Assembly (NCBI GenBank): GCA_937872175.1
Contig: CALMPI010000010.1
Coordinates: forward strand, 186,001 to 250,000
Length of the DNA: 64,000 nucleotides
Direction: 5' to 3'
Source of the DNA: an uncultured Flavobacteriales bacterium
Lineage (GTDB): Bacteria; Bacteroidota; Bacteroidia; Flavobacteriales_F; PHOS-HE28
The notes below the pieces were generated by a model. That model made no database searches and had not been told where the DNA came from. It saw only the letters and a program-made list of their open reading frames with translations. The position numbers were made by a program, and so were the translations under genes. Positions within the stretch are counted from its first letter, which is position 1, and each line of letters opens with the position of its first letter. This document shows positions 5,308 to 32,748 of this stretch, piece by piece.

Positions 5308-5385
5308 CGTGGCCGGAACGGCCGCACCTGTTGATAACTCATTCCGACGAACGGACGACTTTGCCCGACCAAGTGACAAAACCGC

Positions 5386-9721: not shown

Positions 9722-9743
9722 GGAGCCCGCTCCTTCCGATGGG

Positions 9744-9773
9744 GAAGCCCCGGCCGATGGCCGGGGCTTCTTC
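9744..9773 (+). terminator. GC-rich terminator hairpin
   Basis: A perfect 12-bp stem (9744-9755 with 9759-9770) has a 3-nt loop GAT and is followed by a short T-containing tail. It lies 22 nt after the stop codon. The GCCCCGGCC core is shared with the terminators of the following paralogues. Confidence 0.8.
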
Positions 9774-13221: not shown

Positions 13222-13244
13222 GCATCCGGTCCGATCGCATGCAG

Positions 13245-13273
13245 GAGCCCCGGCCGAACGGCCGGGGCTCTTT
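13245..13273 (+). terminator. GC-rich terminator hairpin
   Basis: An 11-bp stem (13245-13255 with 13260-13270) has a GAAC loop and is followed by TTT. It begins 23 nt after the stop codon and has the same GAGCCCCGGCC core as the other terminators in this cluster. Confidence 0.8.
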
Positions 13274-13395
13274 GCGTGTGCAGGCACCGGAAGTGCGGTC
13301 GAAACCCGTGCAGGGCCGTCGGCGTAGAAGGCCTGCCCGGAGGACCCATGCCTGTTCGGCAACAACGGCCACCGGACCACGCAAACCAGCCTGCC

Positions 13396-16300
13396 ATGGC
13401 ACACATTCCCCCCGTCGGAACTCGGTCGCACCGTCGCTTGCGCCCTGCCCTGCTGCCGGCCATCCTATGGGTGGCCTGCATCCCGTTGAACCTGGCGGCC
13501 CAGGTGTCCACGAGCTACACCTTCAGCCAATCGGCCGGAAGCTACACGGAGATCACCGGAGGCACCCAGTTGTTCGGCGGGTTCTTCGGATCGTACGACA
13601 ACCAGGTCTCCAGCGCCCAGACGATCCCCGGCTTCAACTACGCCGGCACGGTGTTCACCGAGATGTATGTGTCCGCGAACGGCTTCATCACGTTCGGATC
13701 GGCGCCCTCCGGAACGAACTTCACCCCATTGAGCAGCGGTGAGAGCTACTCGGGTGCGATCAGCGCGTTCGGCGCCGATATCGAGCACAGCACGGCGAGC
13801 TTCACGCGCACGGTCCGCTGGCAGCAGGTCGGGAATGAGGTCATTGTGCAGTGGAAGAGCGCGCGCAGGCAGAACGAGACCGAGAACTTCGACTTCCAGA
13901 TCCGGTTGAACACGAGCACGAACGCCATCGCGATCGTGTACGGTCCGCGCAGCACACCGGACAACGCGACCACGAACCTGCCGCAGGTGGGTCTGCGCGG
14001 CGCGAACAACCTGCTCCTGAGCAACCTGAACAACCGGCGCGTGGAGACGGGAACGGAGAACTGGGACACCAGCCTTCCCGGCAACGCGTTCAACAACACC
14101 ATGCGTTACACCAGTTCGGGAAGTCCGGACAAGGTGTGGACCAGCGGGCTCACCTATACCTGGTCGCCCTGCGCGGCACCGACGGTGAGCGTGACGCCAT
14201 CGGCCCCCTCCTACTGCCCGGGCGGCAGTGTGGCCCTTTCGGCCTCCGGAGCGAACACCTACACCTGGTCACCCGCCACGGGCCTGAGCGGCACCAGCGG
14301 GGCCAACGTCACCGCCGACCCGACCACCACCACGACCTACACGATCACCGGGCTCAACGGTGGGTGTCCCTTCCCGGGCACGGCGAACGTGACGGTGACC
14401 GTGCTGGACGGACCGACCGGGGTCAGCGCCAACAGCTCGGCCGCCAGTGCGTGTATGAACGGCACGGTGGACCTGACGGCGACCGGCAGCTACCCCGGCA
14501 GCATCCTGAGCCAGGACTTCAACAGCGGAGCCGGCGGTTGGACCACGACGAACAGCTCGACCGGTGGCAATCCGGCCGATGCCGCCTGGACGCTGCGGCC
14601 GGACAACTACTTCTACAATGCCTCGAGCGGCAGCGACCCCACCTTCAGCAGCAACGACGACAGCCAGTTCTTCCTCAGCAACAGCGACGACCAGGGCAGC
14701 GGCGGCGTCACGGCCACCACGCTGGTCTCCCCCGCGTTCAGCCTCGTCGGGTACACCACGGCGAGCCTGAGCTATTTCCACCACTACCGCTTCAATTCCG
14801 GTGCGTCGGACCGCGCCTATGTGGAGGTGTCCACAGATGGCACCAACTACTCTCCCCTGGTCACCTACAGCTCCACTCAGGGCGCTGTGAACGGGTTCGT
14901 GCAGGCCACGCACAGCCTGGACGCGGTCGCCGGACAGCCCACGGTGTACGTCCGCTTCCGCTACACGGCCACCTACGACTGGTGGTGGGCGGTGGACAAC
15001 GTGAGCATCACCGGCGTGGGCAGCGCCCCGTTGACCTGGGCCTGGACCTCCACGCCCGCCGGCTTCACCTCCAGCACGCAGAACCCGACCGGTGTGGTGG
15101 TGGACCAGACCCGCACCTACACCGTGACGGCCACCGCGCCGAACGGGTGCTTCGCACAGGCGACCACCGGTACGGTGACGGCCGTGACGCCGCCCAACGC
15201 GGGGACCAATGGATCCGCGACCGTGTGCAGCAACGACGCTCCGATCAGCCTGTTCGCACAACTCGGTGGCACGCCTGACGGGGGCGGCACCTGGAGCGGT
15301 CCGAGCGTGGTGGTGGGCGGCAACTACGACCCCGCCACGATGGACCCCGGTGTGTACACCTACACGGTGAGCGCCCCGCCCTGCACGGACGCGCAGGCCA
15401 CGGTGACGGTGACGGAGAACACGGCCACCACCTGGTACGCGGATGCGGACGGCGACGGCCTGGGCGATCCGGGCATGTCGCAGCTGGCCTGCTCGCAACC
15501 GGTGGGCTACGTGGCCGACAACACGGACAACTGCCCGGCCACGCCCGGTGTGATCGGCAGCGCCTGCAACGACGGCAACGACTGCACCATCAACGATGTG
15601 ATCGATGGATCCTGCACCTGCGCAGGCACCTTCCAGGACACGGACGGTGACACGGTCTGCGATGCGAACGACAACTGCCCGTCGGTACCGGGTCAGATCG
15701 GCAGCGCGTGCGATGACAACAACGACTGCACCCTCAACGACGTGCTCGACGGCTCGTGCAATTGCGCCGGCACGTATGCGGACACCGATGGCGATGGCAC
15801 CTGCGACGGTGAGGACGGCTGCCCCACGGACCCGAACAAGACCTGGGAGGGCATCTGCGGCTGCGGCAACCCCGATGTGGACAGCGATGGAGACACGGTG
15901 ATGGACTGCCTGGACGGCTGTCCGAACGATCCCAACAAGTTCGCGCCCGGCATCTGCGGCTGCGGCACGCCGGACATCGACACCGATGGGGACGGCACGG
16001 CCGACTGCAACGACCTGTGCCCGATGGACCCGAACAAGACCGCTCCGGGCAGCTGCGGCTGCGGACAAGCGGAACCGGGCTCGGCCTGCGATGACGGCAA
16101 CCCCAACACCGGCAACGATGTGGTGAACGCCAGCTGCCAGTGCATGGGCCAGCCGCTGGATTGCGCGGGCACGCCGGGTGGTCCGGCCCTGCCGGGCACC
16201 GCCTGCGACGACAGCGATGCGAACACGGTGAACGATGTGTACGATGCGAACTGCACCTGTGCGGGCACGCCAACGGGCCAGACCGTCGGTCTGACGCTGA

Positions 16301-17595
16301 ACACCGATGCGAACGGCGGCCAGACGAGCTGGGAGATCATCCCGCAGGGCGGCGGAGCGCCCCTGTGCAGTGGTTCGGGCTATGCGAACAACGCCACCGT
16401 ACCCTTGAGCTGCCCGCTGCCCGATGGGTGCTATGAGCTCCGCGTGATGGACAGCTTCGGCGACGGCATGACCACGGGTGGTTATGTGCTGCGCGACGGC
16501 CACGCCCAGCGCATCATCGACAACCACAATGATGGGGCCTTCGGATCGGAGAGCCGGATCGCGAACAACGGTGGGTTCTGCCTGCCGCTGGGCAACGACC
16601 GCATCCGCCCGAGCCGCTGCGACCTGGAGACCCTGCTGCCCACGGATTGGATCGCCGCCGAGGAGAACCCCGCGGTGAGCGCCCAGTTCGGCGTGGGCAA
16701 CCAGGCCGACGATGGCTACCAGTTCTGGTTCTTCAACCCCGATGGTGGATACAGCCGCCGGGTGCTGATGACGCACGCCACCAACAACTACCTCTTCCCC
16801 TGGGGCCCCGGGCGCTGCAGCTACCTGCGCCTGAGCAACCTCACCACCTCGCCGCTGCCGCACAACCAGCTGCTGAACGTGCGGGTGCGCAGCATGGTGA
16901 ACGGGGTGTACACCGCCTTCGGTCCGGCCTGCCGCCTGAAGATCGACCTGGTGAGCCAGTGCCCGACCACCCAGCTGGTGGACGACATCAACAGCAGCCT
17001 GCACTCCTGCGGCATCACCGACGTGGTGCTCGACGGATCGCAGTACATCCACACAGCGTACGTGGCCAATGTGGTGACCTACCAGTGGGAGTTCGACGAC
17101 ATCAACAGCGCCTACCTGCGCCGCACCACCAGCAGCGGCAGCGCCCTGCGGCTGAGCGCGTGGGCCACCCTGCCCCTGCAGTACAACACCACGTACAACG
17201 TACGGGTGCGGGTGAGCTACGATGGCGGAGCGAACTACTGCCCCTGGGGCACGGCGTGCACCATCACCACGGCCCCGGTGCCTCCGGGCCAAGGCCAGGG
17301 CCGCGGCGTCACCGCCGTGATCGAGAGCCCGGTGACCGAATTCCGGCTGTGGCCGAACCCGAACCGCGGCGATGTGGTGAACGTCCTGGCCGATGGGCTG
17401 CCGGTGGAAGCCACCACGGCCGACCTGTCCATCACCGACCTCTTCGGCAAGCAGGTGTACAACGGGCAGGTGCCCTTGGCCGATGGTGTGGTGCGGCAGG
17501 TGATCGACCTCAGCGGCCGCGCCGCATCGGGTGTCTACCTGGTGGTGCTGCGCACCGGCGAGCACGAACGCATCCAGCGCTTGGTGATCGAATAG
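13396..17595 (+). CDS. T9SS-secreted protein with choice-of-anchor domain, thrombospondin-3 repeats and shared cassette
   Basis: This is a predicted secreted protein of 1399 aa. ATG 13396 (MAHIPPVG) starts a basic n-region and a hydrophobic core ending NLAAQ, and it resembles the start of the preceding paralogue. An N-terminal beta domain (about 36-255) is followed by Ig-like segments (CPGGSVALSASGANTYTW type). A choice-of-anchor J/MAM-like domain lies at about 370-540, with more Ig-like segments after it. Thrombospondin-3-like Asp-rich repeats (DTDGDGTCDGEDGCP and similar) span about 680-960 and probably bind calcium. The constant cassette (about 965-1300) and the sorting domain (LWPNPNRGDV, ITDLFGKQVYNG) finish it. 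Its last part is almost identical to the end of the 3381-aa protein downstream. Confidence 0.88.
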   Translation: MAHIPPVGTRSHRRLRPALLPAILWVACIPLNLAAQVSTSYTFSQSAGSYTEITGGTQLFGGFFGSYDNQVSSAQTIPGFNYAGTVFTEMYVSANGFITFGSAPSGTNFTPLSSGESYSGAISAFGADIEHSTASFTRTVRWQQVGNEVIVQWKSARRQNETENFDFQIRLNTSTNAIAIVYGPRSTPDNATTNLPQVGLRGANNLLLSNLNNRRVETGTENWDTSLPGNAFNNTMRYTSSGSPDKVWTSGLTYTWSPCAAPTVSVTPSAPSYCPGGSVALSASGANTYTWSPATGLSGTSGANVTADPTTTTTYTITGLNGGCPFPGTANVTVTVLDGPTGVSANSSAASACMNGTVDLTATGSYPGSILSQDFNSGAGGWTTTNSSTGGNPADAAWTLRPDNYFYNASSGSDPTFSSNDDSQFFLSNSDDQGSGGVTATTLVSPAFSLVGYTTASLSYFHHYRFNSGASDRAYVEVSTDGTNYSPLVTYSSTQGAVNGFVQATHSLDAVAGQPTVYVRFRYTATYDWWWAVDNVSITGVGSAPLTWAWTSTPAGFTSSTQNPTGVVVDQTRTYTVTATAPNGCFAQATTGTVTAVTPPNAGTNGSATVCSNDAPISLFAQLGGTPDGGGTWSGPSVVVGGNYDPATMDPGVYTYTVSAPPCTDAQATVTVTENTATTWYADADGDGLGDPGMSQLACSQPVGYVADNTDNCPATPGVIGSACNDGNDCTINDVIDGSCTCAGTFQDTDGDTVCDANDNCPSVPGQIGSACDDNNDCTLNDVLDGSCNCAGTYADTDGDGTCDGEDGCPTDPNKTWEGICGCGNPDVDSDGDTVMDCLDGCPNDPNKFAPGICGCGTPDIDTDGDGTADCNDLCPMDPNKTAPGSCGCGQAEPGSACDDGNPNTGNDVVNASCQCMGQPLDCAGTPGGPALPGTACDDSDANTVNDVYDANCTCAGTPTGQTVGLTLNTDANGGQTSWEIIPQGGGAPLCSGSGYANNATVPLSCPLPDGCYELRVMDSFGDGMTTGGYVLRDGHAQRIIDNHNDGAFGSESRIANNGGFCLPLGNDRIRPSRCDLETLLPTDWIAAEENPAVSAQFGVGNQADDGYQFWFFNPDGGYSRRVLMTHATNNYLFPWGPGRCSYLRLSNLTTSPLPHNQLLNVRVRSMVNGVYTAFGPACRLKIDLVSQCPTTQLVDDINSSLHSCGITDVVLDGSQYIHTAYVANVVTYQWEFDDINSAYLRRTTSSGSALRLSAWATLPLQYNTTYNVRVRVSYDGGANYCPWGTACTITTAPVPPGQGQGRGVTAVIESPVTEFRLWPNPNRGDVVNVLADGLPVEATTADLSITDLFGKQVYNGQVPLADGVVRQVIDLSGRAASGVYLVVLRTGEHERIQRLVIE
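15420..16280 (+). repeat. thrombospondin-3-like Asp/Cys repeats
   Basis: Repeated in-frame units carry the pattern D-x-D-x-D-G-D, followed by DPNK or similar and CGCG. Such repeats bind calcium in the thrombospondin type 3 family. From 15817 onward the array is closely related at DNA level to 27199 onward. Confidence 0.7.
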
Positions 17596-17718: not shown

Positions 17719-18537
17719 ATGATCGAAGGATACCGCGAATGGAGCCCCGAAGCGGGAAGCGCCTTGCATCCCTTCGTGCACCGGATGGCGTACGGCTACT
17801 TCCCCATGCCGCTACCGCCGGAGCAATTGGCACCGGACAGCTACATCAAATGGGCGCTGATCCTGGACGGTGAACCGCAGTACTTCGACCGGGACGGACG
17901 GATGGACTGGCACGACGGGTTCTGCGGCCATGTTCCCCCGGAGCGTGGCATCATCGCTACATCGGAAGGTCCGGTGCGCTGCGTGATGGTGAACTTCTTC
18001 CCCAGCGGCTTCCACAAGCTCCTCGGCAAGGACATCGAGACCTTCAACGGTCGCATGGTCCGCCCGCAGCTTGTCATCGGCGACACCATCGACGACCTCT
18101 ACGCCGCCATGCGCGCGGGCCGCGAACCGGACATCATGTTCGAGGTGCTGCAGCGGTACATCGAAGGACTCACCGTGGCTCCAGCCGTAAAGGGCTCCTC
18201 GCTGATCATGGACCTGGAGCGCCGGATCCGCGAAGCGAAGGGCATGCTACCGATCAACGATCTGGCGAGCGGGGCAGGTCTGAGCGAGCGGCAGTTGCAG
18301 CGGCGGTTCAATCGCGAGGTGGGCCTGCCCCCGAAGGAGTTCAGCTCCGTGGTGCGCTTCAACCATGTGTACAGCCACATGCAGCGTGCGCGCAAGCTCG
18401 ACCTTGACATCGCCCTGCAGTGCGGCTACTTCGACGAGAGCCACATGCTGAGGGACCTGCGCTACTACCTAGGCGAGGCACCGAAACGGTTCGCGGGGCT
18501 GATCCGGCCGATGGTGGACACCAGCCTCGGGCACTGA
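17719..18537 (+). CDS. AraC-family transcriptional regulator
   Basis: This is a 272-aa cytoplasmic DNA-binding protein. The N-terminal part (about 1-160) is a cupin-like sensor of the type seen in AraC regulators. The C-terminal part (about 165-262) has the two helix-turn-helix units: INDLASGAGLSERQLQRRF forms the first, and CGYFDESHMLRDLRYYLGEA the second, with the usual terminal PKRF. It is the only regulator inside the giant-protein block, between the fourth and fifth paralogues. It is preceded by the terminator at 17620 and so probably has its own promoter. Its target and ligand cannot be read from the sequence. Control of the adjacent 3381-aa gene is an inference from position. The 264-nt gap after it shows no recognisable element. 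Confidence 0.85.
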   Translation: MIEGYREWSPEAGSALHPFVHRMAYGYFPMPLPPEQLAPDSYIKWALILDGEPQYFDRDGRMDWHDGFCGHVPPERGIIATSEGPVRCVMVNFFPSGFHKLLGKDIETFNGRMVRPQLVIGDTIDDLYAAMRAGREPDIMFEVLQRYIEGLTVAPAVKGSSLIMDLERRIREAKGMLPINDLASGAGLSERQLQRRFNREVGLPPKEFSSVVRFNHVYSHMQRARKLDLDIALQCGYFDESHMLRDLRYYLGEAPKRFAGLIRPMVDTSLGH

Positions 18538-18801: not shown

Positions 18802-21800
18802 ATGAAGTCAAGTTCCCTCGTTCTGCTCTGCGTCGCCTACCTATCGCCTGCAGCCCTCACACAAGCCCAGACGGTCGAACCCCATTGGTGGGTCCCCAAC
18901 GGCGCGGTGAACGCGATCGAACGCGACTCCCTGACCGGTACGGTATACCTGGGAGGCGACTTCACTTCGGTCGGTGCGCCAGTGCCGTTCGGTGCCTGGT
19001 TGGACCCCGTCACGGGCACACCCGACGTGAACTGGGCACAGCCCGGCGGTACGGTGTATAACGGGATCCCGGACGGCTCCGGCGGCTGGTTCATCTGTGG
19101 CAGCTTCACGCAGGTCGGCGACCTGCCGCGCACCCGGGTGGCCCGGCTGAACAGTGCCGGAAGCGTCACGGGGTTCAACGTCGACATTCCCTCTGGCATC
19201 GTGCGACGCTTACTGCTGAGCGGTGACACCTTGTACATGGGCGGAGAATTCACGGCTGCGAACAACCAGCGCAACCTCCTGGCGGTGAACGCCACCTCGG
19301 GTGCACTCCTCAACCTGTTCCCAGGCGGCCTCAACGGGATCGTGCGCGCTTTGGAGAAAAGCGGCAACACCCTGTGGGCGGGCGGCAACTTCACCCGAAC
19401 GAACGGTGATGGGCCCAAGCTGAGCCAGATGGACAAGACCTCGGCTGTTACGGATTGGCACTTCGTGAAGCCCAATGGCGACGTCCGCTGCTCTGCACCG
19501 GACGGTGCAGGAGGTTGGTACATCGGCGGAACCTTCACCACGGTGGGCGGGGTGGCACGGCAACGGGCCGCACGCATCAATGCCGATGGGACGCTGCATG
19601 CCTGGGACCCGAACGTGAACGCCGATGTGAACAGCATTGAAGTGGACGGAGGTACCGTTTACCTCGGTGGCACCTTCACGACCGTGGGGGGCCAGGCCCG
19701 CGGTCGGTTGGCCGCCGTGGACGCGAGCACCGGGGCCGTGCTGCCCTTTTTCGCGGGGCAGGGCATCTCGCCGGGTTACAACGTGAACGACCTGGTGGTG
19801 AACGGCACCGACCTGATCGTGGGCGGGCGTTTCTCCTTCGTGGGCACGCCGGAACCCTTTGGCGCAAAGCTCGACATCGCCACAGGCGCAGCCGACGCCA
19901 ATTACGTGAACCCCAACCTTCCGGTGTTCACATCGGTGCCGGATGGCAGCGGTGGATGGTTCATCGGCGGCACCTTCACGCAGGTGAACGGAACGGCTCG
20001 GCGCGGGGTCGCCCGCATCAATGCCGATGGCACCCTGAACGCCTGGAACCCGGTATGCAATGGCGACGTGCTGGCCCTTCACTACGACGGGACCACGCTC
20101 CACATGGGCGGTACGTTCACCACCGTTGGCGGGCAACCACGGCGTTTGGTCTCCGCAGTGGACGGTACCACGGGTGCGCTGCTTCCCTTCAACGCGAACA
20201 ACGTCTCGGGGACATCCGTGAACGCTGTGCACAAGGCAGGCCCGGCGCTCTACGTGGGCGGCACCTTCCAGGACATGGGGGGGACCACCCGACAGAACCT
20301 GGCCGCCTTGGATGCCACTACCGGTGCGATATTGCCCGGTTGGAAATACGTGACCAACGTCGGTGTCCGGGCAATGACCAGCAACGGCACCGACGTGTTC
20401 ACGGGTGGGGACTTCACCCTGGTCGGACTGGACCGGCCCAGCGGCACCGCCGTGGATCCCGTGACCGGCGAACCGGACTTCAGCTACCTGGAGCCGAACA
20501 GTACGATCTACGCCGCGATCCCGGACGGCAGCGGTGGTTGGTACGTCGGCGGGAGCTTCGACAAGATCGGGTTCACGGCGCGCAGCCGCATCGCGCGGAT
20601 CAACGCCGACGGCAGCGTTCACCCCTGGAACCCGGGCGCGAACAACATCGTGCGCTGCCTGCTGTTGCACGGCGGCGTGCTCTACGCAGGCGGCGACTTC
20701 ACCCAGCTGGGCGGACAGACACGCAACTACATCGGCGCGGTGGATGTCGTGACGGGAACCGCCACCACCTGGAACCCGAACCTGAACGCTGCCGTGCTCA
20801 GCCTCGGCACCGATGGCACCAACATCGTGGCCGGCGGTTCCTTCACCACGTTGGCCGGCAACTACCAGCCCAACTTCGTTTCCCTGAACCCGGCCACAGG
20901 CCTGCGGGCATACGACGTGGCCACGAACAATACGGTGAGCGCGGTGAAGGGCGACGGCACTGCCCTCTACATGGGCGGGTCCTTCACGAATGTTGGCCGG
21001 GCCATCCGGTACGGTGCCGTGCTGACGACGAGCAGCAGCATCGCCCTGCCTGATGTGGTGATGCCGAACAACGAGGTCCATTGCTCCATGCCCGATGGCG
21101 CCGGGGGCTGGTACATCGGTGGCAGGTTCACCACGGTGAACGGTGTGACACGGAACCATGCCGCCCGCATCAACGCCGATGGAACGCTGCATGCGTGGAA
21201 CCCCAACGCGAACAGCGTGGTGTACAGCATGGCCATGGGTGCGGGTGTGGTGTACCTGGGCGGTAGCTTCACCACTATGGGTGGAAGCACCAGGAACCGC
21301 ATCGCCGCGGTGGATGGGACCACCGGTGTGGCCACGGCGTGGAACCCCAACGCCAACGACCAGGTACTGGCCCTCGTTGTGGACGGCCCGAACGTGTACG
21401 CGGGAGGCCGTTTCAGCACCATCGGTGGACAAACACGCCAGAAGCTGGCGCAGTTGGATGCCACCACGGGACTGGCCAGCACGTGGAACGCCAGCATGGC
21501 GAGCGGTACAAGTGCATTCGTCACCGGACTGGAATTGTCCGGTGCGGGAACCCTGTACGTGGCCGGCGAGTATGGCAGTTTGGGCGGTGCGGCGAGGATA
21601 CGCGCAGGTGAGATCAGCCTGGCCACCGCCGTGGCCACATCCTGGGCGCCTTCAGGTATCGGCGGCACCACGAACTGCATCCGGGTGAACGACGCCAACA
21701 GCGTGTTCATCGGACAGACGGGCGGGCCGGGCATCACCAAATGGAACCGCAGCACGAGTGCACAGATCACCAGCTGGAACGCGCTCGTCTCGGGCTCGGC

Positions 21801-24800
21801 CATCGACATCCGCGTGGATGCAGGCGTGGTGTACTTCGGCGGTCAGTTCACCTCGGCCGGCGGTCAAGTGCGCCACCACGCCGCAGCGCTGGACGCGAGC
21901 ACCGCTGCACCCCTGCCGTGGAACCCGATGCTCAACACATACTTCCTCCGCAGCATCTCCATCGCGGGCGGCAACATCTTCATCGGTGGGGGGTTCACGT
22001 TTGTGAACGTGGTGCCGCGCAACCGACTTGTTGAGCTGACCCCTGTGACCGGGGCCATCACCGCATGGGACCCGAACGTGGCCGGCAACGTGCTCGCGCT
22101 GGAGTTCGACGCCACCACGGTTTACGCCGGTGGGGCCTTCACCACCGTGAACGGATCCACCGGGCGCAACAGGATCGCCGCCCTCGACCGCACCACCGGC
22201 CTCGCCACCAGCTGGTCGCCCAACGCGGACAGCGATGTGGCCGCGCTCTGGAAAAAGGATGCCAGCACGATCTACGTCGGTGGCTACTTCAACAACATCG
22301 GTGGAGCCGTTCGCTCAAGACTTGCGGAGATCGACCTGACCATCGGGCTCGCCACGGCCTGGGACCCCTCCCCGGAGAACGGCGGCACCCACGTGAAGAC
22401 AGTGGCGTACGATGGCACGCGGGCCTATGTGGGTGGTCAGTTCCAGTACATGAAGGCCGTGACACGGAACTATGCGGCCGCGTTCGACCTGGGCACCCAT
22501 GACCGCACGACCTGGAACCCCAACGGCGGGAACTCGGTGCACGCGCTGACCATGAACGGATCCCATGTGCTTGCGGGTGGGGATTTCACAAGCTTCGGCG
22601 GAGCCGTGCGGAACCGGGTGGCCGAAGTGGACGCCAGCACCGGTGCGGCCACGCCATGGGACCCGAACGTGAACAGCACCGTATATGCCATCCAAGCGAA
22701 CGGTGGGAGCGTTTACCTCGGTGGGGCGTTCACCACCGTCGCCGGCACTGAGCGCTACCGGTTGGCCGCCGTGGACGGCAGCACCGGGGCACTGTTGCCG
22801 TGGGATCCCGGGGCGGATGCCACCGTACGCACGCTGTCCGCACAAGGCTCCGACCTGTACGTCGGCGGCGACTTCCAGCTGATCAGCGGCAAACCCCGCT
22901 CCGGCTTGATGGCGGTGGATCGCACCACTTCCGCGATCACCGCGTGGGATCCGCGCGTAAGCAGCTTGAACAGCATCCATCAGATGTTCATCGATGGAGG
23001 TCTCCTTTACGTTGGTGGCTTCTTCGGCAACATCAAAGGCGTCTCCCGCGCCAACCTGGCGGCGGTGGACCTGGTCACGGGGGTACCGAGTGGTTGGAAC
23101 CCCGGTGCCAACTCGGAGGTGTACACCTTGACCAAGCAGGGTTCCACCGTCTACTGCGGGGGCGTCTTCACCACACTGGCCGGCCAGCCGCGCGCCAACA
23201 TGGGTGCCGTGGATGCGACCACGGGCACGATCGTCAGCTGGAACCCCGCTCCGAACGGTGCGGTGCGAACGCTCGTGGTCGATGGGACCACGCTGTACAT
23301 CGGCGGTGCGTTCACGAACCTGATGAGCACCGCGCGCAATCGCGCCGCATCGGTGGACCTCTCCAGCTTCACCCTGAACGCTTGGGACCCCAATGCGGAC
23401 GGTGAGGTCAGCGACATCGCGGTGGTGGGCGGCAAGGCGTTGCTGACCGGGGTGTTCAACAACATCGGCGGAGCGGCGCGGAGCTCGCTGGCCTCCTGGA
23501 ACGTGGCCACCGGGGCGATCAACAGCTTCAACCCCGGTGCGAACAACGATGTGCACGATCTGGTGATCAACGGCAGCACCTTGTACGTGGCCGGCGAGTT
23601 CAACAGCCTTTCCGCCAACACACGGAATCGCATCGGTGCCGTGAACGGCTCAACGGGCGCCATCACCACGTGGAACCCCAACGCCAGCACCACGGTCACG
23701 GACATCGAGCTCGCTGGATCCACGATGTACGCCTGCGGGCCGTTCACGACCATCGGCGGTGCATCCCGTTCGCGGCTGGCGGAGCTGAACCTGGCCTCCA
23801 ACACGGCCACCGCGTGGAACCCCGGCCTCTCAGGCGGCACGGCCACCCCGAACCGGTTGACCCTGACACCGACCAGCGTGATCGTCACCGGGGCCTTCAC
23901 CACGGCGGGCGGTCAACCGCGGGTGAACCTGGCCGAGCTCGACCGCACGACCGGCCTGGCCACGGGATGGAACCCCGACCCGAACGCCACGCTGCAGACG
24001 GTAGTGTACGACGGCACCCATGTGTTCGCCGGGGGCAGCTACACGGTGATCGGCAACCAACCCCGCGCGCGACTGGCCGCCCTGGACGCCAGCGGAACGC
24101 TCACCGCCTGGAACCCGGGTGCCGGCAGCACGGTGCGGGCCCTCGCCTTGGATGCGAACAACGTGTACGTGGGCGGCGACTTCACCACGGCCGGTGGCCA
24201 GCCGCGCAACCGCATCGCAGCCATCGATCGGTCCACCGGCCTGGCCACCGCCTGGAACCCGAACAGCAATGGCGCGGTGCACGCGTTGCACCTGGGCCAG
24301 GGGGGCTTGTATGCCGGTGGGGCCTTCGCCACCATCGGGGGTTCATCACGGCTTCGGATCGCGCAGCTCGACCTGGGCACCGGCCTCGCCACCAGCTGGG
24401 CGCCCTCGGTGACCGGCACACAGGTATCGACCATCAAGCGCCAGGGCAACACCGTGTGGCTGGGCGGCTCCTTCTCGGACGTGAACGTGACAGCCCGCTC
24501 GAACATCGCCAGTGTGGACGCCACGACCGGCTTGCTCACCCCCTTCAACCCCAACGCCAACGGCGCGGTGAACACCTTGCTCGTGGACGGCAATGACGTG
24601 TATGCCGGGGGCACCTTCCAGATCATCGGCGGGCAGGGCCGAAACCGCTTCGCGAAGTTGAACGCCACCACGGGCGTGGTGGACGCCAGCGATGCACTGG
24701 CCAGCAATCCCGTGCTGGGCATGGCGCACAGTGGCACCAAGCTGATCACGGGCGGCAGCTTCACCTCCATCGGTGGTGCCGCGCGCGAGCGCACGGCGGT

Positions 24801-27800
24801 GCTGGACAAGTCCAACCTCGGCGCAACCGGCTGGGACATCGGTGCCACGAACAACAATGTGACCGGGGTGGCCACCGACGGTGTGCGGGCCTACTTCGGC
24901 GGGCTCTTCACCTCGTTCGGAGGAACGAACCGCAGCTACTTCGGTGTGGCCACGCTCTGCCCCACCCCATCCACCTACTACCGCGACAACGACGGCGACG
25001 GCTTCGGGAACCCGCTGGCGAGCGTGCAGCTCTGCGAGCAGGTGCCCGGCGTGGTGACGGACAACACCGACTGCAACGACAACGATGCGGCACAATACCC
25101 CGCCGCACCCTGTGACGACCTCAACGCCTGCACCACGAGCGACGCCTACGACGCCACCTGCACCTGCGTGGGCGCTCCCCTGCCCGACGGTGATGGCGAC
25201 GGCACCTGCGATGCGCAGGACGGCTGCCCCGTGGACCCGCTGAAGATCGCTCCGGGCCAGTGTGGCTGCGGAAACCCGGACACGGATACGGACGGCGACC
25301 TGACGGCCGACTGCAACGACCTATGCCGGATGGACCCCTTGAAGGTGGCCCCCGGCGTCTGCGGATGCGGCGCACCGGATACGGACACCGATGGTGACCT
25401 CACCGCCGACTGCAACGATGGCTGCCCGGCCGACCCGCTGAAGATCGCCCCGGGCCAGTGCGGCTGCGGGAACCCCGACACGGACACGGACGGCGACGCC
25501 ACGGCGGACTGCAATGACGGGTGCCCGCTGGATCCGCTGAAGACCGCGGCAGGCCAGTGCGGGTGCGGCGCTCCGGATACGGACACGGATGGGGATGGCA
25601 TTGCGGATTGCCTGGACACCTGTCCATCCCTTGCCGGCCAGATCGGGGATGCCTGTGATGATGGCAACGCGGTGACCAGTGGGGACACGATCTCCACATC
25701 GTGCACCTGCGCAGGTGCATTCACGCTCCCGGTAGGCTATCCCCACCGACCAGGAAGTGGAACGCGCGCATGGATCAGAGGTATTGACGGATATCGTGCG
25801 TCGATCGCTTCGGCTCCACAGATCACGCCAGGAACGGGTGACTGGAGCCTGGAACTATGGATCAGGAACCTGACCGGGGGATCAACCGGGAACCCGATGA
25901 TCCTCGCGATGAACGGCAGCGGTGGGATCGGTGGAGGGCCTGGGGGCGTGGAGAACGACTACTTCTTTCTCGCACGCGGAGGTGGATCAACACCGTTCTA
26001 CGCGTTCCATTTCAGGGACTCCACAGGTACGCTCCAGATCATCAACACCGGACCTACGGAGTACGGCACGTGGCATCACCTGACCATCGTACGGGACTCC
26101 TCGGCCAACACGCTCAGGGCGTACGTGGATGGAACGCTTCGCGCAACGCAGAGCATCACATTCGGTGACGTGTCGCCCATGAACCCGCTCATCATCGGTG
26201 GCGTCGAGAGCGCCGGAAGCAATGGCTATTCTCAGCACTGGTCCGGTTACGTGGACGAGCTCCGCATTTGGGGAACAGCGCTGAGCGCAAGCGCCATCCG
26301 CGATCACATGTGCAAGAAGGACCTTTCCCAACATCCGGCGTTGGCTGACCTGCACGCGTACTACCGGTTCGACGAGGGTGCAGGGAACAGCTTGATCGAT
26401 ATCGCCGGACAGGACAACAACGGCGTTCTTCCCTTGGTGTCGTGGGGCCGCAGCGAAGCGCCCATCGGCGATATCAGCGCCTACAACTACGGTGGCGGAA
26501 GCGCCAGCATCAACGATGGTACGATCTTCACCTCAAGCGCTCCACAGAACGCATTCGTCACCCATGTGTTCAAGGTCAGGGAGGCACCGAACACCAGTGT
26601 CTTCACGGGTCTGACGGAGGCTGACACCAGTGAATACCATGGTGTTTTCATATCCGCGCCGAATTCGGCTCTTGCCACGAGTACGATCACCTGGGATTAC
26701 AGTGCGGACACCGTCCTGAACGGAGCGGTCGGGGAACCTCAGTTGCGGCTTGCGCGTCGAACGCACGCCATGGCGGATTTCACAACCGCTGGTGTGCTGA
26801 ACTTCAGCATCGACACGGCGAACAACACGCTCACGGTCAGCGGCATGGAGTGGCAGGAGTACATCGCCGGATTCAACTGTTCCGGAAGCTGCGACGATGG
26901 CGACCCCTGCACGGTCAGTGATTCCGTGGATCCCAATTGCGGGTGCGTTGGTCTATCGGCACCGGATAGCGATAGCGATGGAACTTGCGATCCGATCGAC
27001 GGCTGCCCGGCCGACCCGCTCAAGACAGCGCCTGGCCAATGCGGTTGCGGCATGCTGGACACGGACACCGACGGAGACCTCACCGCCGACTGCAACGATG
27101 GTTGCCCGAACGATCCGCTGAAGATCGCACCCGGTGCTTGCGGATGCGGCGAGTTGGACACCGACACGGACAATGACCTCACGGCCGACTGCAACGACGG
27201 CTGCCCCACGGACCCGAACAAGACCTGGGAGGGCATTTGCGGCTGCGGCACCCCCGACGTGGACAGCGATGGCGACACGGTGATGGACTGCCTCGACGGC
27301 TGTCCCACGGATCCGAACAAGCTCGCGCCAGGCATCTGTGGCTGCGGCACCCCGGACAGCGACACCGATGGCGACGGTACGGCCGACTGCAACGACCTAT
27401 GCCCGATGGACCCGAACAAGACCGCCCCGGGCAGCTGCGGCTGCGGCCAGGCGGAGCCGGGCACGGTGTGCAATGACGGCGACCCCAACACGGGCAACGA
27501 TGTGGTGAACGCCAGCTGCCAGTGCGAGGGCCTGCCGATGGACTGCCTCGGAGTTCCGGGTGGCACTGCCCTGCCGGGCACCACTTGCGACGACGGCGAT
27601 GGGAACACGGTGAACGATGCCTACGACGCCAACTGCGTCTGCTCCGGAACGCCGGCCAACGCTGGTGTGCAGCTCACCCTCACCACGGACGGCGGAGCCG
27701 CGCAGACCAGCTGGGAGATCATCCCACAGGGCGGCGGCGCATCGATCTGCAGCGGAGCGGGTTATGCGAACAACAGCACCTTTGTGTTGACCTGCCCCAT

Positions 27801-28947
27801 CGTCGCCGGGTGCTACGAGCTGCGCGTGCTGGACAGCTTCGGCGACGGCATGAGCACCGGTGGCTACGCGTTGCGCGATGCCAACGGCCAGCGCATCATC
27901 GACAATGCCGGCGACGGGGTGTTCACCTTCGAGAGCCGCATCGCCAACAGCGGCGGCTTCTGCCTGCCCCTGGGCACCGACCGCCTGCGCAGCAGCCGCT
28001 GCGATCTGGAAACGATGCTGCCCACCGATTGGGTCGCCGCGGAAGAGAACGCGACCGTCAGCGCCCAATACGGAACAGGTGCGCAGAACGACGACGGGTA
28101 CCAGTTCTGGTTCTTCAACCCCGATGGTGGGTATAGCCGACGGATCCTGGTCACCCATGCCAGCGCCAGCTACCTCTTCCCGGCCGGACCGGCACGGGCC
28201 TGCCACATCGCCTTCTCCGGCATCATCACCAACCCCCTGCCGCAGCAACAGCTGCTGAACGTGCGGGTGCGGAGCATGGTCAACGGCGTCTACGCCCCCT
28301 TCGGTCCGGCCTGCCGGATGCGCATCGCGCCGTTGTGCGCCACCACCCAGTTGAACAATGACCCCATGAGCACGGAATACTCGTGCGGGGTGACCCGGGT
28401 GTTCGGTGCCATGGACAAGGTGCATGCGCAGGCTGTCACCGGGGCGAACCGGTACCGGTTCCGCTTCGAACGCACGGGCGGTGGGTTCACGCGCGTGATC
28501 GCCAGCACCACACGCAGCTTGCAGCTCAAGTGGCTCACGCTCCCGCTCGTGGCGGGGGACAGCTACACGGTCACCGTGGCACCCAGCTACGACGGCGGGG
28601 CCACCTACTGCCCCTATGGGGCGGCCTGCACCCTGGCGATCGTGGCGCCGGCCACTGCACAGGCGCGTTCCGCGCCCATGGTGCAGGGCGACCTGCTCCT
28701 GTTCCCGAACCCGAATCAGGATGGACGTCTGAACGTGCTGGCCGATGGGCTGCCGGTGGAAGCCACCACGGCCGACCTCTCGATCACCGACCTCTTCGGC
28801 AGGCAGGTGTACAACGGGCAGGTGCCCGTGGCCGATGGCGTGGTGCGGCAGGTGATCGACCTCAGCGGCCGCGCCGCATCGGGTGTCTACCTGGTGGTGC
28901 TGCGCACCGGCGAGCACGAACGCATCCAGCGCTTGGTGATCGAATAG
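18802..28947 (+). CDS. 3381-aa T9SS-secreted propeller-repeat/LamG adhesin-like protein
   Basis: This is the largest gene in the window. A clear signal peptide (SSSLVLLCVAYLSPAALTQA) starts it. Residues about 24-2050 are about 42 repeats of roughly 45-50 aa with the pattern VYxGGxFTTxGGxxRxxxAxxD, close to delta-60/DUF5122 beta-propeller blades. A thrombospondin-3-like array covers about 2055-2310. A LamG/concanavalin-like domain (about 2312-2560: WSLELWIRN, YGTWHHLTIVRD, YVDELRIWG) and an adjoining beta segment to about 2690 follow. A second thrombospondin-3-like array covers about 2693-2950. The constant cassette (about 2955-3285) and the T9SS type A sorting domain (LLFPNPNQDG, ITDLFGRQVYNG) end it. 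No enzyme motif is visible. A surface adhesin or matrix fibre that binds glycans through LamG is inference. Confidence 0.9.
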   Translation: MKSSSLVLLCVAYLSPAALTQAQTVEPHWWVPNGAVNAIERDSLTGTVYLGGDFTSVGAPVPFGAWLDPVTGTPDVNWAQPGGTVYNGIPDGSGGWFICGSFTQVGDLPRTRVARLNSAGSVTGFNVDIPSGIVRRLLLSGDTLYMGGEFTAANNQRNLLAVNATSGALLNLFPGGLNGIVRALEKSGNTLWAGGNFTRTNGDGPKLSQMDKTSAVTDWHFVKPNGDVRCSAPDGAGGWYIGGTFTTVGGVARQRAARINADGTLHAWDPNVNADVNSIEVDGGTVYLGGTFTTVGGQARGRLAAVDASTGAVLPFFAGQGISPGYNVNDLVVNGTDLIVGGRFSFVGTPEPFGAKLDIATGAADANYVNPNLPVFTSVPDGSGGWFIGGTFTQVNGTARRGVARINADGTLNAWNPVCNGDVLALHYDGTTLHMGGTFTTVGGQPRRLVSAVDGTTGALLPFNANNVSGTSVNAVHKAGPALYVGGTFQDMGGTTRQNLAALDATTGAILPGWKYVTNVGVRAMTSNGTDVFTGGDFTLVGLDRPSGTAVDPVTGEPDFSYLEPNSTIYAAIPDGSGGWYVGGSFDKIGFTARSRIARINADGSVHPWNPGANNIVRCLLLHGGVLYAGGDFTQLGGQTRNYIGAVDVVTGTATTWNPNLNAAVLSLGTDGTNIVAGGSFTTLAGNYQPNFVSLNPATGLRAYDVATNNTVSAVKGDGTALYMGGSFTNVGRAIRYGAVLTTSSSIALPDVVMPNNEVHCSMPDGAGGWYIGGRFTTVNGVTRNHAARINADGTLHAWNPNANSVVYSMAMGAGVVYLGGSFTTMGGSTRNRIAAVDGTTGVATAWNPNANDQVLALVVDGPNVYAGGRFSTIGGQTRQKLAQLDATTGLASTWNASMASGTSAFVTGLELSGAGTLYVAGEYGSLGGAARIRAGEISLATAVATSWAPSGIGGTTNCIRVNDANSVFIGQTGGPGITKWNRSTSAQITSWNALVSGSAIDIRVDAGVVYFGGQFTSAGGQVRHHAAALDASTAAPLPWNPMLNTYFLRSISIAGGNIFIGGGFTFVNVVPRNRLVELTPVTGAITAWDPNVAGNVLALEFDATTVYAGGAFTTVNGSTGRNRIAALDRTTGLATSWSPNADSDVAALWKKDASTIYVGGYFNNIGGAVRSRLAEIDLTIGLATAWDPSPENGGTHVKTVAYDGTRAYVGGQFQYMKAVTRNYAAAFDLGTHDRTTWNPNGGNSVHALTMNGSHVLAGGDFTSFGGAVRNRVAEVDASTGAATPWDPNVNSTVYAIQANGGSVYLGGAFTTVAGTERYRLAAVDGSTGALLPWDPGADATVRTLSAQGSDLYVGGDFQLISGKPRSGLMAVDRTTSAITAWDPRVSSLNSIHQMFIDGGLLYVGGFFGNIKGVSRANLAAVDLVTGVPSGWNPGANSEVYTLTKQGSTVYCGGVFTTLAGQPRANMGAVDATTGTIVSWNPAPNGAVRTLVVDGTTLYIGGAFTNLMSTARNRAASVDLSSFTLNAWDPNADGEVSDIAVVGGKALLTGVFNNIGGAARSSLASWNVATGAINSFNPGANNDVHDLVINGSTLYVAGEFNSLSANTRNRIGAVNGSTGAITTWNPNASTTVTDIELAGSTMYACGPFTTIGGASRSRLAELNLASNTATAWNPGLSGGTATPNRLTLTPTSVIVTGAFTTAGGQPRVNLAELDRTTGLATGWNPDPNATLQTVVYDGTHVFAGGSYTVIGNQPRARLAALDASGTLTAWNPGAGSTVRALALDANNVYVGGDFTTAGGQPRNRIAAIDRSTGLATAWNPNSNGAVHALHLGQGGLYAGGAFATIGGSSRLRIAQLDLGTGLATSWAPSVTGTQVSTIKRQGNTVWLGGSFSDVNVTARSNIASVDATTGLLTPFNPNANGAVNTLLVDGNDVYAGGTFQIIGGQGRNRFAKLNATTGVVDASDALASNPVLGMAHSGTKLITGGSFTSIGGAARERTAVLDKSNLGATGWDIGATNNNVTGVATDGVRAYFGGLFTSFGGTNRSYFGVATLCPTPSTYYRDNDGDGFGNPLASVQLCEQVPGVVTDNTDCNDNDAAQYPAAPCDDLNACTTSDAYDATCTCVGAPLPDGDGDGTCDAQDGCPVDPLKIAPGQCGCGNPDTDTDGDLTADCNDLCRMDPLKVAPGVCGCGAPDTDTDGDLTADCNDGCPADPLKIAPGQCGCGNPDTDTDGDATADCNDGCPLDPLKTAAGQCGCGAPDTDTDGDGIADCLDTCPSLAGQIGDACDDGNAVTSGDTISTSCTCAGAFTLPVGYPHRPGSGTRAWIRGIDGYRASIASAPQITPGTGDWSLELWIRNLTGGSTGNPMILAMNGSGGIGGGPGGVENDYFFLARGGGSTPFYAFHFRDSTGTLQIINTGPTEYGTWHHLTIVRDSSANTLRAYVDGTLRATQSITFGDVSPMNPLIIGGVESAGSNGYSQHWSGYVDELRIWGTALSASAIRDHMCKKDLSQHPALADLHAYYRFDEGAGNSLIDIAGQDNNGVLPLVSWGRSEAPIGDISAYNYGGGSASINDGTIFTSSAPQNAFVTHVFKVREAPNTSVFTGLTEADTSEYHGVFISAPNSALATSTITWDYSADTVLNGAVGEPQLRLARRTHAMADFTTAGVLNFSIDTANNTLTVSGMEWQEYIAGFNCSGSCDDGDPCTVSDSVDPNCGCVGLSAPDSDSDGTCDPIDGCPADPLKTAPGQCGCGMLDTDTDGDLTADCNDGCPNDPLKIAPGACGCGELDTDTDNDLTADCNDGCPTDPNKTWEGICGCGTPDVDSDGDTVMDCLDGCPTDPNKLAPGICGCGTPDSDTDGDGTADCNDLCPMDPNKTAPGSCGCGQAEPGTVCNDGDPNTGNDVVNASCQCEGLPMDCLGVPGGTALPGTTCDDGDGNTVNDAYDANCVCSGTPANAGVQLTLTTDGGAAQTSWEIIPQGGGASICSGAGYANNSTFVLTCPIVAGCYELRVLDSFGDGMSTGGYALRDANGQRIIDNAGDGVFTFESRIANSGGFCLPLGTDRLRSSRCDLETMLPTDWVAAEENATVSAQYGTGAQNDDGYQFWFFNPDGGYSRRILVTHASASYLFPAGPARACHIAFSGIITNPLPQQQLLNVRVRSMVNGVYAPFGPACRMRIAPLCATTQLNNDPMSTEYSCGVTRVFGAMDKVHAQAVTGANRYRFRFERTGGGFTRVIASTTRSLQLKWLTLPLVAGDSYTVTVAPSYDGGATYCPYGAACTLAIVAPATAQARSAPMVQGDLLLFPNPNQDGRLNVLADGLPVEATTADLSITDLFGRQVYNGQVPVADGVVRQVIDLSGRAASGVYLVVLRTGEHERIQRLVIE
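18870..24955 (+). repeat. array of about 42 delta-60-like blade repeats
   Basis: I counted 42 occurrences of the GG-x-F (or slightly degenerate) core over about 6.1 kb. Every fourth or so blade in the first half begins with PDGSGGW or PDGAGGW, a super-repeat. The second half uses the simpler TGLATxWNPN link. All repeats stay in one frame, so this is a protein repeat and not a CRISPR or satellite. Confidence 0.85.
24968..27660 (+). repeat. two thrombospondin-3-like arrays flanking a LamG-like insert
   Basis: Units of the type DTDTDGDLTADCNDGCPADP plus APGQCGCG recur from 24968 to about 25734 and again from about 26881 to 27660. The interval 25735-26880 has a different composition: two 60-nt lines I counted are 60% and 53% GC, against 78% in one line of the propeller array. 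It encodes a LamG-like domain. The 3' array from 27199 is closely related to 15817-16140. Confidence 0.75.
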
Positions 28948-29167: not shown

Positions 29168-31450
29168 ATGTGTTCATCCATCCCCCGGACCGGCCACGCG
29201 GCGCAGCCCACGAACGAACCACCCAAGGCCGTCCGGTACGGCCTTTCGCTCCTTCGGCTTCCTCCGCACCTGTTGACCATCTTCCTGCTTCCGGCTGTGA
29301 TGCATGCGTTCCTTGTTGCGCTGCCTGTCGCGGGCCAGAGCCGGGCAGGCACGAGCGCGGTCTGCTTGTCGGAGGTCGGCACGGTGGGCACGGCCAACGC
29401 CCCCAGGCAGATCGCCGTTCACGGGAACCTGCTCTGTGCGGTGACCCACGGAGGCAACATGCTCCAGGTGTTCGACATCAGCACACCGGGATCACCGGTG
29501 CTTTCGGGTCAAGCCCCGACCGCATCGGGGGCCTCCTCCGTGTTCATCGACGGCGCTGGTACGAACGCCTATGTGCTTGCGCAGACCAGCGCCAAGCTCC
29601 AGGTGTTCGACATCAGTGATCCGGCCAACCCGGACCTTCTGGGCCAGTTCACCACGGACGCCCAACCGACCGGACTGCACATCCACAACGGCACGGCCTA
29701 CGTGACCTGCCAGGGCACGCAGAAGCTGCAGGTGCTGGATGTGACCGACCCTGGCGCAATGACCCAGCTCGGTTCGGTGGCCACCTCGGCCGGCCCCAAA
29801 GGAGTGGCCCTCCTGGGCGACCATGCCGTGGTGGTGAACGCGCTCGGGAACATGTTGGAGGTGTTCTCGGTGGTCAACCCGTCCTCGCCCGCCCTGGCCG
29901 GATCGGTCAGCACCGGCCTGCAACCATCAGCGGTGGCGGTGAGCGGGAATTCCGCCTATGTGACCCTGTCCACGGGCGACAGCCTCCAGGTCTTCGACCT
30001 GAGCGTACCGGGCAACCCCGTCCCCATCGGTGCGAGCGCCACCGCGGATGCGCCGAACGCGCTGGCCATCAGCGGCGACCGGTGCTACGTGGTCGCCCGC
30101 GGCGGAAATGCCGTGGAGGTGTTCGATATCGTCGATCCGAGCGACCCGGTCGCCATCGGCTCGGCCGGCACGCTAAGCACCCCGTGGTCCGTGGCGACCG
30201 GGAACGGTCACGTCTTCATCACCAGCAACCTGGCGAACACGCTTCAGGTGTTCGAGCCCCGCGGTCCCGGGGATGCGTGCGATGATGGCGATCCGGCCAC
30301 GGGGAACGACGTGTTCGATGGGAGCTGCAGCTGCGCCGGTGTGCTGATCGACTGCCTGGGCGTTGTCGGTGGAGCGGCCGTGCCCGGCAGCCCCTGCGAT
30401 GATGGCGACGCGGATACCGGTAACGATGTATATGGTGCGAACTGCCAGTGCGGTGGTGCGCTCCTGGACTGCATGGGGATCGCCGGAGGAGTTGCCCTGC
30501 CCGGTACCGCCTGCGACGATGGTGACCCCGGCACCGGAAGTGATCTGTACGATGCCAACTGCGTCTGTGTGGGCACCGTGAACGACTGCCTGGGGGTGCC
30601 GGGCGGCGTATCGGGTCCCGGAACGCCCTGTGACGATGGGAACCCGAACACCCAGTTGGACGTCTACGATGCGAACTGCGTGTGCGCCGGACAATTCGTG
30701 GATTGCCTGGGTGTGCCGGGCGGTGGGGCCGTGTCAGGGGCGCCCTGCAATGATGGGGACCCGACGACCGGTGATGACGTCTGGCTGGCGGATTGCATCT
30801 GCGCCGGCGAGTTGATCGATTGCCTGGGCGATCCGGGTGGGGCCGTGCTGCCGGGAACGCCCTGCGACGACCTCAACGCATGCACCACGAACGATGCGTG
30901 GAACCCGTTCTGCGAATGCATCGGCGATCCGATCCTGATGGCAGGGATCACCGGGCCCGCCACAGTTCAGGGCTGGGAGCCCGTGACCTATTCGATCCCT
31001 CCGGTGCCCGGCGCGCAAGCCTACCTGTGGGACCTGCCCGAGGACTGGTCCACCACCGACATGACCCCGGATGAGGTGATCCAGACCACGACCTACAACG
31101 AGGCCGGAACCGTGCAGGTGTGCGTGGGTGTGGACATGGGCTCCTGTCTGGCGACGACCTGTTTGAGCGTGGAGGTGGCGCTCTCGATCGGCATGGCGGA
31201 GGACGATGCGGATATCGGCCTCATCGTCCGTCCCAATCCGTGCACTGGCGCGTTCGACCTTGTCCACACCGGGACCGGGCCCATCGAAGTGTCGGTGCTG
31301 GACGTGTCGGGCAGGCTGGTGATCGCCCCGTTCCTCACCGGTGCGGGGATCACACGGATCGCGATGAGCGACGCGGGACCCGGGACCTATCTCGTGCGGG
31401 TGGTCGGTGCCGGGGAGATGCGCACCCTTCCCTTGCTCGTCGGGTTCTGA
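29168..31450 (+). CDS. T9SS-sorted LVIVD-propeller protein with Cys/Asp repeats
   Basis: This is a predicted secreted protein of up to 760 aa. The start is uncertain. ATG 29168 gives a long basic n-region before a hydrophobic stretch (LLTIFLLPAVMHAFLVALPV) and a GQS cleavage area; ATG 29300 would give a short signal. Residues about 60-368 hold seven LVIVD-type blades (LQVFDIS, LQVLDVT, VEVFDIV and similar), enough for one closed seven-blade propeller. Residues about 370-590 hold six 39-aa repeats (CDDGDPxTGNDVYDANCxC). A PKD-like domain (about 593-675) and a T9SS type A sorting domain (VRPNPCTGAF, VLDVSGRLV) end it. It is first in a tightly packed four-gene set and lacks the C-terminal cassette of the upstream giants. 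Confidence 0.85.
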   Translation: MCSSIPRTGHAAQPTNEPPKAVRYGLSLLRLPPHLLTIFLLPAVMHAFLVALPVAGQSRAGTSAVCLSEVGTVGTANAPRQIAVHGNLLCAVTHGGNMLQVFDISTPGSPVLSGQAPTASGASSVFIDGAGTNAYVLAQTSAKLQVFDISDPANPDLLGQFTTDAQPTGLHIHNGTAYVTCQGTQKLQVLDVTDPGAMTQLGSVATSAGPKGVALLGDHAVVVNALGNMLEVFSVVNPSSPALAGSVSTGLQPSAVAVSGNSAYVTLSTGDSLQVFDLSVPGNPVPIGASATADAPNALAISGDRCYVVARGGNAVEVFDIVDPSDPVAIGSAGTLSTPWSVATGNGHVFITSNLANTLQVFEPRGPGDACDDGDPATGNDVFDGSCSCAGVLIDCLGVVGGAAVPGSPCDDGDADTGNDVYGANCQCGGALLDCMGIAGGVALPGTACDDGDPGTGSDLYDANCVCVGTVNDCLGVPGGVSGPGTPCDDGNPNTQLDVYDANCVCAGQFVDCLGVPGGGAVSGAPCNDGDPTTGDDVWLADCICAGELIDCLGDPGGAVLPGTPCDDLNACTTNDAWNPFCECIGDPILMAGITGPATVQGWEPVTYSIPPVPGAQAYLWDLPEDWSTTDMTPDEVIQTTTYNEAGTVQVCVGVDMGSCLATTCLSVEVALSIGMAEDDADIGLIVRPNPCTGAFDLVHTGTGPIEVSVLDVSGRLVIAPFLTGAGITRIAMSDAGPGTYLVRVVGAGEMRTLPLLVGF
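30278..30930 (+). repeat. six in-frame 117-nt (39-aa) Cys/Asp repeats
   Basis: Each unit starts C-D/N-D-G-D/N, has D-V-Y/F-D-A-N-C-x-C in the middle and D-C-L-G-V-x-G-G near the end; the sixth is shortened. The same unit occurs once or twice in the giants at about 16081-16270 and 27463-27650. It is therefore a mobile protein module within this locus. Confidence 0.75.
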
Positions 31451-32746: not shown

Positions 32747-32748
32747 CC

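Follow-up and report, generated by a model that had tools for sequence, protein, structure and literature searches.

Proteins that hold several beta-propellers in one chain are already known. Runs of up to 47 near-identical blades are described in the accessible part of Pereira and Lupas 2022 (PMC9218822), where WD40 blade numbers peak at 7 and 14 with a continuum between. Two proteins with two seven-bladed propellers each, the type IX secretion cargo PorZ and the sensor BT4663, appear in the accessible part of another report (PMC5121618), which relates that the propeller fold of BT4663 binds sugars. A nested chain is likewise known in its simplest, two-ring form. The family DUF5122 (PF17164) was earlier modelled as a repeat protein, according to the accessible text of PMC8078820. 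In this report, we describe P0001, a 3381-residue protein encoded by an open reading frame (ORF) at 18802-28947 on the plus strand of a 64,000-nucleotide stretch ("the window") from an uncultured Flavobacteriales bacterium. P0001 carries 42 propeller blades in one run. We give a probability of roughly two in three to the reading that P0001 is a type IX-secreted surface protein with six closed seven-bladed rings, an array held to whole rings by selection on folding and acting as a scaffold that binds glycans or other surfaces.

18802..28947, plus strand: ORF of P0001, 3381 residues (ORF list and translation; family profile matches)
18874..24966, plus strand: 42-blade propeller array, residues ~25-2055 (hallmark positions, hidden Markov model count, DUF5122)
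21700..21828, plus strand: degenerate blade 20, residues 967-1009 (canonical hallmark missing; interpolated in the hidden Markov model count)

The blade hallmark (V/L/W)Y.GG.F recurs from residue 48 to residue 2030 in steps of about 48 residues. Hallmark positions and a count with a hidden Markov model (HMM) give 41 canonical blades and one degenerate blade, and a half-blade precedes blade 1. A preliminary description made from the DNA had placed about 42 blades in a single protein, and both this number and its approximate position are borne out. DUF5122, a propeller family, matches nine stretches of P0001 with 153.8 bits against a Pfam cut-off of 27, and a 48-column HMM built from the protein's own blades scores 1894.6 bits on the ORF (a self-scored value). 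With DUF5122 so far above its cut-off and the blade HMM scoring as it does, the array is not a chance pattern. The Rax2 C-terminal propeller (PF12768) reaches 23.7 bits, below its cut-off of 28.8, over about three blades (residues 1485-1637). WD40 is absent from the seven Pfam families that match P0001 at E up to 1. Sequence searches for a solved structural relative gave no credible match, the best covering 50 residues at E 0.059.

The preliminary description had also suggested growth by block duplication; recent duplication of this kind is not supported here. Blades within P0001 share a mean pairwise identity of 33% (33.5% in a second computation), the closest pair in DNA is 80% identical over 122 bases of one blade, and Tandem Repeats Finder reports no blade-length tandem array in the blade region. 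Blade identity is not raised at a lag of seven, and this, with the uneven spacing of the super-repeat discussed below, speaks against one fixed block. Given the low identity and the lack of a blade-length tandem repeat, we infer that the array arose long ago and that the assembly is unlikely to have collapsed or expanded it. That the array has grown recently and is still growing, its copy number varying freely between strains, is accordingly very improbable; the basis of that reading is that other family members are very homogeneous (internal identity up to 81%), so that amplification goes on in the family, whereas the divergence within P0001 and the mostly whole-ring counts of its relatives speak against it.

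To predict the fold, AlphaFold was run on two halves, blades 1-21 (mean predicted local distance difference test score 75.4) and blades 22-42 (78.5), and the models were compared with solved propellers by using VIA-align; residue ranges were converted by hand to blades. Each half yields closed seven-bladed rings. Those at blades 15-21 (Z 27.9, 2.7 Å, 272 aligned) and 36-42 (Z 29.8, 2.2 Å, 262 aligned) are largely free of any effect of alignment placement. Two others span blades 5-11 (for example, Z 28.9, 2.2 Å, 266 aligned) and 26-32 (Z 29.5, 2.2 Å, 272 aligned).

20920..21894, plus strand: predicted closed seven-blade ring, blades 15-21 (AlphaFold, VIA-align; model residues 686-1010)
23983..24963, plus strand: predicted closed seven-blade ring, blades 36-42 (AlphaFold, VIA-align; model residues 693-1019)

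In the models, rings are predicted to close with seven blades in either register, which in prediction fits the seven-bladed beta-propeller fold, a closed ring of seven four-stranded blades. The preliminary description had called for a structure prediction of the array, with an open solenoid as the outcome that would count against propellers; no solenoid appears. We therefore see hardly any likelihood in a structure that stays open, whether as a solenoid or as an extended blade string. P0001 does have evenly spaced blades with no linkers between blade groups, as such a structure would, and blade spacing gave no clear signal of a ring border between blades 7 and 8, but the predicted rings closely match seven-bladed propellers and the quantised lengths described next would lack a reason.

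Blade numbers in relatives provide the second line of evidence. Array ORFs came from genomes sharing the genus, the class or the phylum, and from three further loci. The queries were stretches of the P0001 array (for the later set below, one 14-blade protein), which favours arrays near that size but does not in itself select multiples of seven. Removal of 72 redundant ORFs from 220 left 148, and exclusion of 9 cut by contig or locus ends left 139 complete arrays. The largest block in these has 6 blades (7 arrays), 7 (19), 8 (1), 10 (2), 11 (3), 12 (6), 13 (15), 14 (70), 15 (2), 18 (1), 19 (2), 20 (2), 21 (4), 27 (2), 28 (2) or 42 (1). Exact multiples of seven (7, 14, 21, 28 and 42) thus account for 96 of the 139. 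With all counts taken together, the mean zero-phase signal is strong at period 7 alone (0.77), the other periods from 3 to 12 reaching at most 0.20.

When the ends of odd-count arrays were read, many proved to have a further, worn last blade. We recounted with a terminal-blade motif rule, after dropping six of the 139 arrays that have several blocks, and 109 of the remaining 133 become multiples of seven. The rule adds at least one blade to 12 of 15 arrays counted at 13 (two overshoot to 15), to both at 27, to one of two at 20 and to four of seven at 6. To arrays already at a multiple of seven it adds nothing (0/69 at 14, 0/17 at 7, 0/4 at 21, 0/2 at 28, nor at 42). A later set, retrieved from another class with another query (one 14-blade protein at E 1e-70) and counted with frozen models, retained 60 arrays after 5 of 65 were dropped; 55 are multiples of seven (6 with 7 blades, 49 with 14). 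Among arrays of high internal identity, in which the blade number must have been set recently, 58 of 64 are multiples of seven. The 139 arrays are related proteins and hence not independent: they form 64 clusters at 45% identity, in 36 of which the modal count is a multiple of seven and in 57 within one of a multiple.

The family therefore seems to grow by whole rings. That the blades might close in sevens, giving six propellers by number, had been raised at the outset, and the AlphaFold rings together with the family's peaks at 7, 14, 21, 28 and 42 agree with it. Copy-number variation had been suggested as possible between strains; relatives do differ, mainly by whole rings, and the homologue nearest in its C-terminal region has 21 blades. 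Among all 199 arrays counted (139 plus 60), that of P0001 is the longest, the next longest having 28 blades. Under the preferred reading, the first ~2,055 residues would fold as six closed seven-bladed beta-propellers in a single chain. An incomplete ring would expose open blade edges, which would keep the array at a whole ring number, with mostly seven-blade gains and losses surviving.

Several observations count against so regular a picture. The predicted template modelling (pTM) scores of the two halves are just 0.42 (blades 1-21) and 0.47 (blades 22-42). The register of rings 5-11 and 26-32 follows the aligner's placing of seven-blade relatives, and for this reason we give it no weight. 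Each half also leaves groups of four and three blades, and a clean split into 1-7 and 8-14 is not predicted. Among arrays of more than 15 blades, just 7 of 14 are exact multiples at the first count, and period 10 is also high (0.53, vs 0.58 for period 7). In the later set, the motif rule over-adds, lowering the multiples of seven to 47 of 60.

Other loci contain related arrays. One (L050, contig 13 of G043) has 21 blades, is cut at both contig ends and shows blade-1 types (defined below) at blades 3, 6 and 9; in full it is probably longer than 21. In the source genome of P0001 itself, an ORF on contig C19 (L045, 2700-18830, 5377 residues) has three separate blocks of exactly seven blades each, together with seven relatives of the P0001 LamG region; identity is 38-43% for six of these and 30% for the seventh. 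Putative viral contigs from IMG/VR (L214, L215 and L216) encode seven-blade relatives of the P0001 array, and 2-13 blades, often 6, were counted at other viral loci. Viral sequences scanned again with the second half of the P0001 array as query gave no matches.

A further regularity concerns particular blades. The preliminary description had noted a super-repeat in the first half of the array, in which each fourth or so blade starts with PDG(S/A)GGW. The mark is real and occurs five times, ahead of blades 2, 5, 8, 12 and 16, although its spacing of 3, 3, 4 and 4 is not strictly every fourth blade. None was found in the second half. The array is indeed built in two parts, with PDG-marked starter pairs confined to the first. 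Position profiles were built from 56 complete 14-blade arrays, and cross-validation used 109 14-blade arrays picked because blade 1 was a starter. The profiles recognise blades 1 and 2 as a distinct pair (0.95 and 0.98) and blade 14 as a cap (0.96), whereas interior blades are much alike (0.27-0.39), except blade 8 (0.61). In P0001, blade-1 types occur at blades 1, 4, 7, 11 and 15 with 41-56 bits (the runner-up type reaches at most 24), each is followed by a blade-2 type, and blade 42 is of the cap type. The PDG super-repeat is thus made of copies of the starter pair that opens most 14-blade relatives. The strongest DUF5122 match in P0001, at residues 769-796, is the second blade of such a pair.

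18943..19230, plus strand: starter pair 1, blades 1-2 (position profiles)
19372..19656, plus strand: starter pair 2, blades 4-5 (position profiles)
19813..20097, plus strand: starter pair 3, blades 7-8 (position profiles)
20395..20679, plus strand: starter pair 4, blades 11-12 (position profiles)
20965..21249, plus strand: starter pair 5, blades 15-16 (position profiles)

Starters track the number of rings. Taking as ring count a multiple of seven reached with or without the terminal-blade rule, we could assign 164 of 193 arrays (29 fit neither), and in 140 of the 164 the number of starters equals the number of rings minus one. One-ring arrays have none (25 of 26), two-ring arrays one (106 of 128), three-ring arrays two (4 of 5), four-ring arrays three (4 of 4) and the six-ring P0001 five. 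Because training used two-ring arrays only, the cells for three or more rings are independent of it and the two-ring cell is not. Of the later set's 50 arrays counted at 14 or 15 blades, 45 show one starter, at blade 1. Of the longer arrays left out of the 164, three (18-20 blades) have a single starter, and one has starters at blades 4 and 5. Starters lie two to four blades apart near the front of the arrays. Three of the four 28-blade arrays have them at blades 1, 5 and 9, the other at 1, 3 and 5; four 21-blade arrays have them at 1 and 5, 1 and 4, or 1 and 3, and the fifth at blade 1 only. One genome (G736) encodes two different 28-blade arrays (L144 and L151); in both, the starters are blades 1, 5 and 9, and blade 22 is weakly of the blade-8 type.

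Rings arranged in line would want starters at blades 1, 8, 15 and so on, which is not seen as a rule. Duplication at the N-terminal end could cluster the starters, but it leaves the seven extra blades per starter unexplained. A nested chain would explain both the close starters and the seven blades per further starter. In such a chain, each starter would open a new ring before the previous one had closed, giving six closed rings in another chain order. The last-opened ring would be contiguous (blades 15-21), earlier rings would be closed in reverse by blades 22-24, 25-27, 28-31 and 32-35, and blades 36-42 would be a plain ring without a starter. We regard this as a tentative and less likely alternative to rings in sequence. 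Consistent with it, the starter rule holds in nine of ten arrays of three or more rings, the starters are never seven blades apart, and the models have contiguous rings at 15-21 and 36-42, with four and three blades left around the ring between. A precedent is PorZ, in which one strand of the second propeller lies ahead of the first, as told in the accessible part of PMC5121618. Against it, the four-seven-three pattern may stem from alignment, and in 14-blade arrays the border seems to fall between blades 7 and 8, so that two-ring members look sequential. No closing blades were recognised in the arrays, and covariation over the 109 14-blade arrays is ruled by like positions in all blades, ring-closing pairs not being prominent. 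Decoding of long arrays by blade type was not used, as only 35 of the 109 known 14-blade arrays were read error-free. The corresponding general rule for the family, a bracket grammar in which starters open rings and the last ring opened is the first to close, threading several propellers into one another along the chain, is doubtful to a similar degree. It would imply starters numbering one fewer than rings, lying two to four blades apart at the front, and blade numbers in multiples of seven.

The starter spacing can also be read as sequential rings of mixed sizes, for example 6+8+7 in the first half, where each of the first two would consist of two halves that begin with a starter; a total of 42 blades would then be coincidence or compensation. 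The blocks between starters (3+3, 4+4, then seven to blade 21) fit this arrangement. We nevertheless consider it improbable, since seven dominates as the family period and single-ring members have seven blades.

The closest homologue of P0001, judged by the C-terminal region (residues 2765-3381), is a protein encoded at 7515-13064 of locus L033 in genome G005, with 66% identity over 620 aligned positions. It has 21 blades rather than 42, with starters at blades 1 and 4, and its blades are far more alike than those of P0001. Its gene is flanked by two further array genes, one encoding about 21 blades and the other 7-8. Three neighbours of P0001 also match this protein (43-53% over 459-761 positions), and it is thus only a candidate orthologue. 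A search of 44 other genomes of the genus gave no close relative of the P0001 lectin region (best 31% identity). The downstream LVIVD gene, described below, has relatives at 72% identity in G033 and at 45-48% in G005, G024 and G018. No blade gene was found in the stretches around the relatives in G005, G024 and G018, and the G033 contig ends at its relative.

The remainder of P0001 bears on the six-ring surface protein we prefer. A putative signal peptide precedes the blades, which are followed by Asp/Cys-rich repeats, a Laminin_G_3 domain, further Asp/Cys-rich repeats and a sorting domain. The repeats look by eye like thrombospondin type 3 repeats, although Pfam gave no match.

18802..18870, plus strand: putative signal peptide, residues 1-23 (judged by eye on the translation)
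25192..25592, plus strand: Asp/Cys-rich repeats, 33 residues each (99-base tandem repeat)
25807..26298, plus strand: Laminin_G_3 or concanavalin-like domain, residues 2336-2499 (74.7 bits, cut-off 27.6)
27185..27447, plus strand: Asp/Cys-rich repeats, second group (99-base tandem repeat)
28699..28941, plus strand: type IX secretion C-terminal sorting domain, residues 3300-3380 (TIGR04183, 31.4 bits, cut-off 23)

PF18962 scores 25 bits on the same tail, under its cut-off of 27. The source genome (4.3 Mb, 52 contigs) encodes the SprA translocon (TIGR04189, 2566 bits), and 150 sorting-domain matches are listed in it, which are all those scored. Type IX secretion is itself suggestive of Bacteroidota. 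The P0001 gene is one of a series of large genes that have sorting tails. In the proposed architecture, the propellers would be followed by stalk-like Asp/Cys-rich repeats, the concanavalin-like (LamG) domain and the sorting tail. A rigid scaffold of several rings could then bind glycans or other surfaces and so attach the cell. Judging from its sequence, P0001 most probably serves at the cell surface as a scaffold or adhesin that is exported by type IX secretion and bears a lectin-like domain, because type IX export, the lectin-like domain, the stalk-like repeats and a propeller fold as in the sugar-binding BT4663 all point in that direction.

In the window, four successive large ORFs (74-17595) lie upstream. 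All have type IX sorting tails, one of which scores slightly under the Pfam cut-off, and two of the ORFs carry P_proprotein domains. The array gene is separated from them by an AraC-type regulator (17719-18537), for which 45 genomes of the genus yielded a single other match, at 31%. The next gene downstream (29168-31450) probably encodes another propeller (LVIVD repeats, 70.2 bits) and has a sorting-type tail under the Pfam cut-off. In the ORF at 32713-35124, a tandem repeat with a 36-base unit spans 33407-33654. The product weakly matches Peptidase_G2 (autoproteolytic) and is 91% identical over 505 residues to a protein in G033, whose gene also lies beside the LVIVD gene there.

The literature searched, mostly without subscription journals, held no account of this family's whole-ring series or of its starter rule. 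The natural series of 7, 14, 21, 28 and 42 blades offers a setting in which to study how a repeat protein comes to grow by whole folds rather than single repeats, and the starter blade is a sequence mark that tracks the number of folds. If the rings are nested, the sequence would reveal their order, and chains that nest three or more propellers would represent a novel mode of multidomain protein construction.

Among known systems, DUF5122 is matched by P0001 above the Pfam cut-off, but most blades are of another subtype, and P0001 differs in having 42 blades in one run and a grammar of starters and cap. The Rax2 propeller shows the weak likeness noted above, and to WD40 rings the likeness is one of predicted fold only. 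PorZ and BT4663, as presented in the accessible part of PMC5121618, have two rings, other blade families and known partners or ligands; BT4663 chains are the top Foldseek matches of the first P0001 model (blades 1-21). The propellers of Pereira and Lupas 2022 (PMC9218822) share long blade runs with P0001, but, in the accessible part of that paper, have blade identities above 60% by definition and form a continuum of sizes, whereas the P0001 family has mostly whole rings. Against a median blade identity of more than 60%, P0001 has 33%, a computed mean rather than a median of all pairs. Closest are the 14-blade relatives in Bacteroidota, many of them in secreted-type proteins, which have the same blade, the starter pair at blades 1-2 and the cap, but two rings and one starter where P0001 probably has six rings and carries five starters.

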